Assembly: GCA_001637315.1 (NCBI GenBank)
Contig: LSZA01000003.1
Span: forward strand, 1 to 64,000
Source of the DNA: Phormidium willei BDU 130791
GTDB lineage: Bacteria; Cyanobacteriota; Cyanobacteriia; Cyanobacteriales; Geitlerinemataceae
Direction of reading: 5' to 3'
Length of the DNA stretch: 64,000 bases
Shown: piece after piece, positions 17,251 to 41,208 of the stretch
Layout: the number at the start of each line of letters is the position of its first letter
Position numbering within the stretch: the first letter of the stretch is position 1
Made by a program: the position numbers and the translations under genes
The notes under the pieces: generated by a model
Databases searched by the model: none
Told to the model about the DNA's origin: nothing
Seen by the model: only the letters and a program-made list of their open reading frames with translations

Positions 17251-17323
17251 GCCCCCATCGTCTAGAGGCCTAGGACACCTCCCTTTCACGGAGGCGACGG
17301 GGATTCGAATTCCCCTGGGGGTA
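17251..17323 (+). tRNA. trnE: tRNA-Glu (anticodon TTC)
   Basis: The 73-nt sequence folds as a tRNA. GCCCCCA pairs with TGGGGGT in the acceptor stem (A is the discriminator base), and the D arm holds TCTAGAGGCCTAGGA. The anticodon stem CCTCC/GGAGG carries CTTTCAC with TTC, and the T arm GGGGA-TTCGAAT-TCCCC is perfect. The CCA is not encoded. In cyanobacteria charged tRNA-Glu also feeds tetrapyrrole synthesis through glutamyl-tRNA reductase. Confidence 0.97.
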
Positions 17324-23420: not shown

Positions 23421-24152
23421 CTAATAAGCGCCATTATTTTTGGGGAAAATAATCACACCAATCGTTTTGATGGCGATCCAAAAATCCATCCAAGCATGGC
23501 GGCAGTTGACATAATACACATCAATCTTGACCCGCTTTTCATAGGGAATATCATTGCGTCCGGACACTTGCCATAATCCAGTAATTCCTGGACGAATGGT
23601 CAAAACTTTATCCATGTAGCGTCCATACTTTGGCAACTCTTCCCGAATCAGAGGGCGCGGACCCACCACACTCATATCCCCCCGAAGAACATTCCAAAAC
23701 TGGGGAAATTCATCCAGACTGGTAAACCGCAAAAAACGACCAATCCAGGTAATTCTGGGATCGCTCTTGAGTTTAAAGGTTTCCTGAAACTCTTCCCGAA
23801 TTTGTGGAGAGCTTTCTAGAAGCTCCTCTAACACTTGATCGGCATTGGAGACCATCGTTCTAAATTTGATGCAACCAAACGGTTTTCGGTCTTTGCCAAT
23901 TCGTTCTTGAACATAGAAGATCGGACCTGGAGAACTCAAGAGAATTAGAGACCCCAAAATCAAGTACACCGGAGAAAATAAAATCAAAACCAGGGCAGAA
24001 AACAGAATGTCAAACAGGCGTTTTCCTAACGCACCGTTGGCATCTGCCACTGTGAACCTTTGGGGGCGCAAGTCTGCCAGACGGGGTGCAATTCCCCGTT
24101 TGACAAGCGCCCACAGTCCTTTTGCAGAGATCAGTTGGCTATTGGCAGTCAT
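23421..24152 (-). CDS. Polyprenyl-phosphate sugar-1-phosphate transferase (exopolysaccharide priming enzyme)
   Basis: The 243-residue protein is read from ATG 24152, which has GGAG a few bases upstream; the frame is open to 24212 but lacks a ribosome site there. A hydrophobic helix (RLFDILFSALVLILFSPVYL) leads into the bacterial sugar-transferase domain with the conserved VQERIGKDRKPFGCIKFRTM, SLDEFPQFWNVLRGDMSVVG and RPGITGLWQVSGRN. It loads the first sugar phosphate onto undecaprenyl phosphate at the inner membrane. This is the short, single-helix form. The sugar is not predictable. Confidence 0.9.
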   Translation of the reverse strand: MTANSQLISAKGLWALVKRGIAPRLADLRPQRFTVADANGALGKRLFDILFSALVLILFSPVYLILGSLILLSSPGPIFYVQERIGKDRKPFGCIKFRTMVSNADQVLEELLESSPQIREEFQETFKLKSDPRITWIGRFLRFTSLDEFPQFWNVLRGDMSVVGPRPLIREELPKYGRYMDKVLTIRPGITGLWQVSGRNDIPYEKRVKIDVYYVNCRHAWMDFWIAIKTIGVIIFPKNNGAY

Positions 24153-24218
24153 CGTACTCCTTCCATTCACACCACACACACACAGTCGAGATCCTAACGC
24201 CATATCCGTCATCTGGCT

Positions 24219-39309: not shown

Positions 39310-39633
39310 CTAGAGATACTTTTCGAGAGTATTCGCCAAGGTTGTTTTGGGAACGGCGCCGACAACCATATCCACCCGCTGTCCATCTTTAAAGATCATC
39401 AGCGTGGGGATACTGCGAATTCCGTACTTGCTGGCGACTTCAGGATTATCATCGGTATTGAGCTTGACGACCTTAACTTTCCCTTCGTATTGTTGGGCGA
39501 TCTCCTCGACCACAGGACCCACCATCCGACAAGGTCCACACCAAGGTGCCCAGAAGTCCACCAGGACGGGCAGTTCGCTTTCCAAAACGTCGTTTTTAAA
39601 GCTTGCGTCTGAAACCTCTGCGGTTGCTGACAT
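39310..39633 (-). CDS. trxA: Thioredoxin
   Basis: The 107-residue protein has the active site W31-C32-G33-P34-C35 in [14 protein letters not shown], the cis-proline in RSIPTLMIF, and standard length. It reduces protein disulfides in the cytosol and in photosynthetic organisms controls many Calvin-cycle enzymes. Upstream on the same strand lie yfr1 and guaB3, the order known in other cyanobacteria. The start at 39633 is the usual MSATAEVSD. Confidence 0.96.
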
Positions 39634-39863
39634 ACTTCAAAAGTCCTTATCTAATCTTGTTTGCAATGTTGAGCGTAACAGTCTCCTCAGGTGGGAGCTA
39701 GCGAGTGATCACCATAGACTACGCTTTCCCCTAGATTTTACCACAGGGGTCGCCCGGCTCCATTGACCAAAAATAGCGACGCATTCCCCCACCTCGCGTC
39801 AGTGGCTGGGGGAGGATTCATAACCCCAGGTGCAGGTTGGTCAACCCGAACAGGGCCAGTCCC

Positions 39864-39938
39864 AAAAAAGAAACCACCCGAACGATTCGTCCGGGCGGAG
39901 TGTGGTGTGAGGAGTGAACGGAAACATGTGTCTCCGCT
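39864..39938 (-). ncRNA. yfr1: Yfr1 small RNA
   Basis: On the minus strand, a TAGAAT -10 box (39950-39945) is followed by a short RNA. It begins with a stem CGGAGAC/GTTTCCG, has an unpaired CU-rich centre with ACTCCTCACAC, the invariant Yfr1 motif, and ends in a strong stem around CCCGGACG-AAT-CGTTCGGG closed by TTTCTTTTTT (U tract 39869-39864). Length is about 75 nt. Its place between guaB and trxA is the conserved location of Yfr1. Yfr1 regulates outer-membrane porin mRNAs in other cyanobacteria; targets here are unknown. Both ends are estimated. Confidence 0.92.
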
Positions 39939-40044
39939 CATTCTATTCTAAGAGATAAATGGCAAACCTGTCTCCTAGAAACTTAACTTCATATGAGGCC
40001 AGTTGTCAGGTCGGCTCACAGGCAGACATCCTCAAAGAGCGAGC

Positions 40045-41208
40045 CTACTTGCCCATGCCCAACTGTTGCGCTTTTTGATACACCTTTCCTTCGGTTAATA
40101 ACGAAGGAGCAATGGCAATTTCCACCTGCTGCATATCTTGGAGAGTTTTCGCTCCCAAGGTTCCCATACTCGTTTGTAAGGCTCCAAGGAAATTATGGGT
40201 TCCATCGTCAAGTTGTGCTGGACCGCGCAGGATCTGTTCGAGAGTTCCGGTACTACCGACCTTAATACGAGTTCCCCGAGGTAACACAGGGCTTGGCGTC
40301 GCCATACCCCAGTGATAGCCACGTCCAGGAGCTTCCTTGGCACGAGCAATGGGGGAGCCAATCATGACCCCATCTGCCCCGCAGGCAATACATTTACAAA
40401 TATCGCCACCGGTGACGAGTCCACCATCGGCAATGACCGCCACATAGTTACCGGTTTCCTTGAAGAAGTCATCCCGAGCCGCTGCACAGTCAGCCACAGC
40501 CGTCGCTTGGGGAACTCCAACCCCTAAAACTCCCCGAGAGGTGCAAGCCGCACCGGGTCCGATGCCCACTAAAATGGCAGCCGCCCCCGTCTTCATCAGG
40601 TTTAGGGCAACGTCATAGGTAACGCAGTTCCCCAGAACCACCGGCATGGGCATCCGCTGACAGAAGTCACCTAAATCCAGCGGTGTCACCGTCTCTGGAG
40701 ACAGGTGAGCGGTGGAGACAACCGTTGCCTGGACAAAGACTAAATCAGCTTCGGCTTGAGCAATCGCGTCACCAAACTTCACCGCACCGGCGGGAGTGAC
40801 GCTGACAGCCGCGATTCCGCCCTGTTCTTTAATTTCTTGAATCCGTTTGACAATCAGTTCATCGCGAATCGGCTGACTGTAAAGTTCCTGCATCAGTGGC
40901 ACGAACTCAGTTTTGTCAACGGAGGCGATGCGATCGAGAATCGGGTTGGGATCGTCATAACGAGTTTGAATGCCCTCAAGGTTAAGGACACCGAGTGCCC
41001 CGAGTTGAGACAGTTTGACTGCCATCTGCACATCCACCACACCATCCATGGCACTGGCGATAATAGGGATTTCTCGTTTGATTCCGCCGATTTCCCAACG
41101 GGTATCGGCAAGGATCGGATCGAGGGTGCAATTTCCCGGCACTAGGGCGATTTCGTCAATTCCGTAGGCGCGACGAGCGTTTTTGCCTCGTCCAATTTCA
41201 ATATCCAC
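40045..41208 (-). CDS. guaB3: GuaB3-type IMP dehydrogenase
   Basis: The 387-residue TIM-barrel protein of the IMP dehydrogenase family lacks the CBS domain pair of ordinary GuaB. It has the catalytic-cysteine loop [13 protein letters not shown], the phosphate site [14 protein letters not shown] and the flap region [13 protein letters not shown]. Cyanobacteria use GuaB3 for the IMP to XMP step of GMP synthesis. It reads towards yfr1 and trxA on the same strand. The start at 41208 ([16 protein letters not shown]) is the common N-terminus of the family. Confidence 0.92.

Follow-up and report, generated by a model that had tools for sequence, protein, structure and literature searches.

In Phormidium willei BDU 130791, the short element downstream of guaB3 is very probably yfr1, a small-RNA gene whose linker would target the ribosome-binding regions of envelope genes and block their translation. 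The element lies within a 64,000-nucleotide stretch of contig LSZA01000003.1, all of which was analyzed and which we refer to as the window. Yfr1 is a known small regulatory RNA, of which this is the standard cyanobacterial version; its gene is expected in nearly every cyanobacterium. As read from the genome sequence, yfr1 is present in a single copy with a predicted promoter, a predicted terminator, and two covarying stems that would hold the linker single-stranded, and this linker is complementary to predicted ribosome-binding regions in the leaders of three or more OprB porin genes, murC, and a sugar-transferase gene in the window. The added value is that a target set in a filamentous lineage can be read without experiments.

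A single-copy yfr1 gene between guaB3 and trxA

An Rfam search of the whole window matched Yfr1 (RF01116) to the minus strand at 39872-39937 with 58.0 bits (E 6.9e-9), against a gathering score of 38 bits for the family, and the match spans the full-length model (positions 1-59 of 59). The initial annotation had named the element Yfr1 and proposed a covariance search with that family; the search has now been run, and its score, 20 bits above the gathering score, bears the name out. No second match was found by Rfam across the 4.6-Mb genome, which is 91.7% complete. The published Northern probe Yfr1_multi_2 is identical at 24 of 24 positions to 39900-39923, and a Northern probe sequence for yfr1 is GTGTGGTGTGAGGAGTGAACGGAA. 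The only other Rfam match in the window is a tRNA gene at 17251-17323 on the plus strand.

Published Yfr1 RNAs are distinguished by an invariant undecanucleotide in an unpaired linker of 16 to 20 nt between two stem-loops (PMC2190773), and the stems are defined as a 5′ stem of 6 to 10 bp and a GC-rich 3′ hairpin of 6 to 9 bp or more that is followed by a U tail. The minus strand of 39864-39938 contains, in order, GCGGAGAC-ACAT-GTTTCCGT, a linker with ACTCCTCACAC and CCACAC, and the hairpin CCGCCCGGACG-AAT-CGTTCGGGTGG followed by TTTCTTTTTT. In the predicted fold, a 5′ stem of 8 bp and a 3′ stem of 11 bp, the latter followed by UUUCUUUUUU, flank 19 unpaired nucleotides that include the 16-nt linker (ACUCCUCACACCACAC). 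The minimum free energy (MFE) of this fold is −29.7 kcal/mol (z = −5.1), and none of 200 shuffled sequences was equally stable. The -10 box, TAGAAT here, reads TACAAT at the same place in most relatives, and the -35 region (GAGACA) is a weak match; both transcript ends are predictions based on where the -10 box and the T run lie. Position, strand, core, both stems, -10 box, and terminator all agree with what had initially been annotated. The guaB-trxA gap named there stands on the trxA side, and the upstream gene is more exactly of the GuaB3 type. Coordinates are collected in Table 1.

Table 1. Positions within the window of yfr1, its parts, its neighbors, and its predicted target
Feature	Position	Strand	Evidence
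guaB3, GuaB3 family IMP dehydrogenase-related protein, upstream neighbor	40045..41208	-	TIGR01304, 539.7 bits
-10 box TAGAAT of predicted yfr1 promoter	39945..39950	-	Comparison with relatives; -35 match weak
yfr1 gene; transcript probably ~66-73 nt long, starting close to 39938	39866..39938	-	Rfam match
5′ stem-loop GCGGAGAC-ACAT-GTTTCCGT	39918..39937	-	Rfam, fold, covariation
Invariant unpaired core ACUCCUCACAC	39905..39915	-	Rfam; unpaired in MFE fold
Remaining unpaired linker CACACT	39899..39904	-	Conserved among filamentous relatives
3′ hairpin of intrinsic terminator, then T-rich stretch to 39864	39874..39898	-	Terminator prediction
trxA, thioredoxin, downstream neighbor	39310..39633	-	TIGR01068, 142.2 bits
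Split complement GTGTGGTGTGA-ATGGAA-GGAGT, predicted to bind Yfr1	24156..24177	-	Duplex −24.2 kcal/mol
Undecaprenyl-phosphate sugar phosphotransferase, RfbP/WbaP-like, 243 aa, predicted target	23421..24152	-	NF052601, 414 bits; PF02397, 219 bits

Complementary sites in envelope-gene leaders

The 11-mer of the Yfr1 core occurs three times in the genome, yfr1 itself included, and the two other copies are antisense sites, each no more than 40 nt ahead of the start codon of an OprB/SLH porin gene. A reading of these two copies as Yfr10-like RNAs was rejected, both being antisense target sites at porin genes. Perfect anti-Yfr1 sites precede the porin gene on contig C13 (GTGTGAGGAGTACATCC-ATG; duplex of −25.0 kcal/mol) and that on contig C11 (GTGTGAGGAGTTTACTGTGAGGAGTTTGAAAACC-ATG, with two tandem sites; −20.2 kcal/mol). 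A third porin gene, on contig C73, has GGTGTGAGGGAAG-ATG (−19.6 kcal/mol); a fourth, on contig C30, also reaches −19.6 kcal/mol, but its start codon is uncertain. In the same duplex scoring of the organism's own genome, porin C6 showed no strong Yfr1 site at its likely start. Control duplexes at the first start codon of 42 window genes averaged −5.5 kcal/mol, and the strongest of them reached −11.0 kcal/mol. Across the family, 26 of the 30 porin genes scored reached −15 kcal/mol, whereas 2 of 41 window genes did so when the same laxer start rule was applied, all starts being predicted start codons (Fisher p ~5e-13, a value that ignores relatedness, the 26 porins not being independent because porin orthologues are related). 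With base composition preserved, none of 200 shuffled linkers reached 26 of 30 porins (worst case, 24 of 30; mean, 4.9). In murC of this genome, GGTGTGGTGTGTTAGGA lies before the coding region and gives a duplex of −27.0 kcal/mol. The strong murC site is kept in 10 of the 14 family genomes scored, among which one genus has a murC gene without a Yfr1 site. In Nostoc, experiments have validated both porins and murC as targets of Yfr1 (PMC6974561); in Prochlorococcus, two porins have been validated (PMC6778093).

The porin leader at locus L033 (1476-1515, minus strand) carries two tandem Yfr1-complementary sites 16 bases apart, and its close relatives either keep one site or have the second replaced by AAGAGGAG repeats. 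The possibility that these tandem cores, which follow a TAGAAT-like box, form an RNA gene was discarded, the region being the antisense of the porin leader. Tandem GTGAGGAG..GTGAGGAG..ATG was rejected as a general porin feature after a search over the class, because simple GTGAGGA repeats dominate, control counts are similar, and the marine matches are probably Yfr2-like rather than porins. The single 8-mer GTGAGGAG precedes ATG at 38 places in the organism's own genome, against 9 for the control, and most of these places are not gene starts.

Within the window, a further site lies 15 kb from yfr1, where the sugar-transferase ATG at 24152 (minus strand) is preceded by GTGTGGTGTGA-ATGGAA-GGAGT-ACG. 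Its duplex surfaced only under the laxer start rule when the window genes were scored. The two arms of this site together form the exact complement of the 16-nt linker; one linker half would pair with GTGTGGTGTGA and the other with GGAGT, leaving the six mRNA bases between the arms bulged out. The CACACT part of the linker is predicted to lengthen target pairing in filamentous cyanobacteria and would be used with both the murC and the sugar-transferase leaders. Eleven family genomes have a conserved leader around the site, and the sequence upstream drifts. The pattern GTGTGGTGTGAN{2,12}GGAGTN{1,14}ATG was found at 21 places in 20 of 242 class genomes. Fifteen of these places precede sugar-transferase orthologues from about 10 families, and their spacers vary both in length and in sequence. 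Another two lie before murC, recognized by its start motif, and this recovery of murC by a pattern built from the linker alone is a useful check. One more precedes a gene for a squalene/phytoene-synthase-like protein, recognized by its start. Genes of this kind, identified by their N-terminal sequence, have Yfr1-complementary leaders in the organism's own genome and in a distant one (L152 1501 and L250 1501; GTGAGGAGTTGAACTGATG and GTGTGGTGTGA..GGAGT), and are a possible further Yfr1 target.

We consider it fairly likely that Yfr1 directly represses the sugar transferase through the split site and that selection has kept this site in about 10 families. No paper linking Yfr1 with a sugar-transferase gene was found in a literature search that covered main texts; a prior listing in supplementary tables is possible, and the product of all4829, a validated Yfr1 target in Nostoc, is not given in the main text.

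GAGG and GGAG are normal Shine-Dalgarno sequences and account for part of every site, which raises the possibility that Yfr1 is real but that the porin, murC, and sugar-transferase sites are merely strong Shine-Dalgarno sequences pairing with UCCUC by chance. We regard such chance pairing as improbable: the pairing extends well past the Shine-Dalgarno sequence, either into a GGTGTG that precedes the purines or into GTGTGGTGTGA, which lies several bases further upstream, whereas the window control genes, with ribosome-binding sites of their own, have no such extended pairing. In the 242 class genomes, the split pattern matched at 21 places and its reversed control at none.

Conservation of the element as a probable separate RNA

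The three genes guaB3, yfr1, and trxA lie on the same strand, and yfr1 has the same place in most cyanobacteria. The nearest named genome by guaB3 is that of Geitlerinema sp. P-1104 (94% identity). Among 80 guaB3 loci of relatives, 69 have the exact core downstream, with trxA also in reach in 58; several of the loci lacking the core or trxA are truncated where a contig stops. A sample drawn from the whole phylum gave a Yfr1 match in 135 of 292 genomes, and the genomes without one, among those listed, are nearly all outside the class to which the window belongs. All 11 positions of the core are invariant in 24 diverse sequences. In the same 24 sequences, 91% of the cells of both stems are paired and 9 of 17 pairs have changed on both sides, a covariation score reached by none of 500 shuffles; as a control, sliding one stem side by one column lowered pairing to about 50%. 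Both-side changes affect four of the eight pairs of the 5′ stem and five of the nine pairs of the 3′ stem, the latter with 98% of cells paired. The two stems had initially been described as strain specific in sequence. This holds for the second, which varies with compensation, but not for the first, as CGGAGAC/GTTTCCG is near-identical in almost every filamentous relative, the differences being found mainly in picocyanobacteria.

Two picocyanobacterial genomes (G291 and G257) have another exact copy of the Yfr1 core about 30 nt away from that of yfr1; it is on the opposite strand and has a strong 5′ hairpin of its own (L121, also L012 and L013; near 527-605); this near-palindromic region is perhaps a divergent second Yfr1. 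In genome G288 (L122, ~536-610), a second core-bearing RNA with a 5′ hairpin and a terminator lies away from guaB/trxA and looks like a Yfr10-type RNA.

Since genes on the same strand flank the element on both sides and its 3′ hairpin would also stop read-through from guaB3, it might instead be a cis-acting element that resembles Yfr1, such as an attenuator or terminator in the trxA leader or at the 3′ end of guaB3, rather than a separate trans-acting RNA. This is very unlikely. The element has its own -10 box, its 5′ stem and core would be superfluous for a terminator, and complementary sites are present at unlinked genes. Moreover, the core stays invariant across the phylum while its neighbors change (Table 2 of PMC2190773), and published Yfr1 is a discrete RNA of 54 to 69 nt in the ten strains tested (PMC2190773). 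That the conservation reflects a protein encoded by the overlapping 67-codon frame at 39738-39941 (minus strand), which is open and starts with ATG, can practically be dismissed, since loop and stem lengths vary by one base among relatives and so break any frame, the frame runs through the terminator and has no NCBIfam match, and conservation tracks the base pairs and the core instead.

Proposed action of Yfr1 and comparison with known RNAs

The linker matches ribosome-binding sites in front of porin, murC, and sugar-transferase genes, so Yfr1 most likely turns off the synthesis of cell-envelope proteins. In the scheme we propose, yfr1 would be transcribed from the TAGAAT promoter, and abundant Yfr1 would base-pair in the cell with the leaders of envelope genes, covering the Shine-Dalgarno sequence and blocking ribosome entry. 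Less porin, peptidoglycan, and surface-polysaccharide synthesis would then follow. The sugar transferase probably starts surface-polysaccharide assembly; the predicted targets would widen the known envelope theme of porins and murC to a surface-polysaccharide enzyme. If so, porins, peptidoglycan, and exopolysaccharide would all be coordinated by a single RNA. The sugar-transferase site, deeply conserved and easily tested, is the one testable addition to a known RNA.

Yfr1 may in turn be held in check by a second RNA. A Cyano-1-like RNA (RF01701) on contig C12 scores 40.6 bits, just under the gathering score of 41, and carries GTGTGTGAGGAGCG, which gives a duplex of −22.5 kcal/mol with the Yfr1 linker. 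We take Cyano-1 to correspond to Yfr2, and a Yfr2-type RNA with such a complementary motif could act as a sponge for Yfr1. In Prochlorococcus, Yfr2 sequesters Yfr1 (PMC6778093). Marine-type genomes (L186-L189, ~1501) have GGGGTGTGAGGAGCCAAACCTTGTGAGGAGTTGGC, which contains two anti-Yfr1 motifs and is not followed by a long frame; these elements are probably Yfr2-type RNAs, some of them multi-copy.

MicF, MicC, and OmrA of enterobacteria are small trans-acting RNAs that pair with the ribosome-binding regions of porin genes; they are unrelated to Yfr1 in sequence and structure, the likeness being one of mechanism only. Yfr10-like RNAs have the core motif in common with the RNA described here but are without conserved structure and synteny (PMC6778093), both of which are present in full at the window locus. 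With Yfr1 (RF01116), the RNA shares the core, the two stems, the U tail, predicted size, strand, and the guaB/trxA position (PMC2190773), and nothing of substance differs; relative to the Yfr1 RNAs of related cyanobacteria, its upper 3′ stem is strain specific, with compensatory changes.
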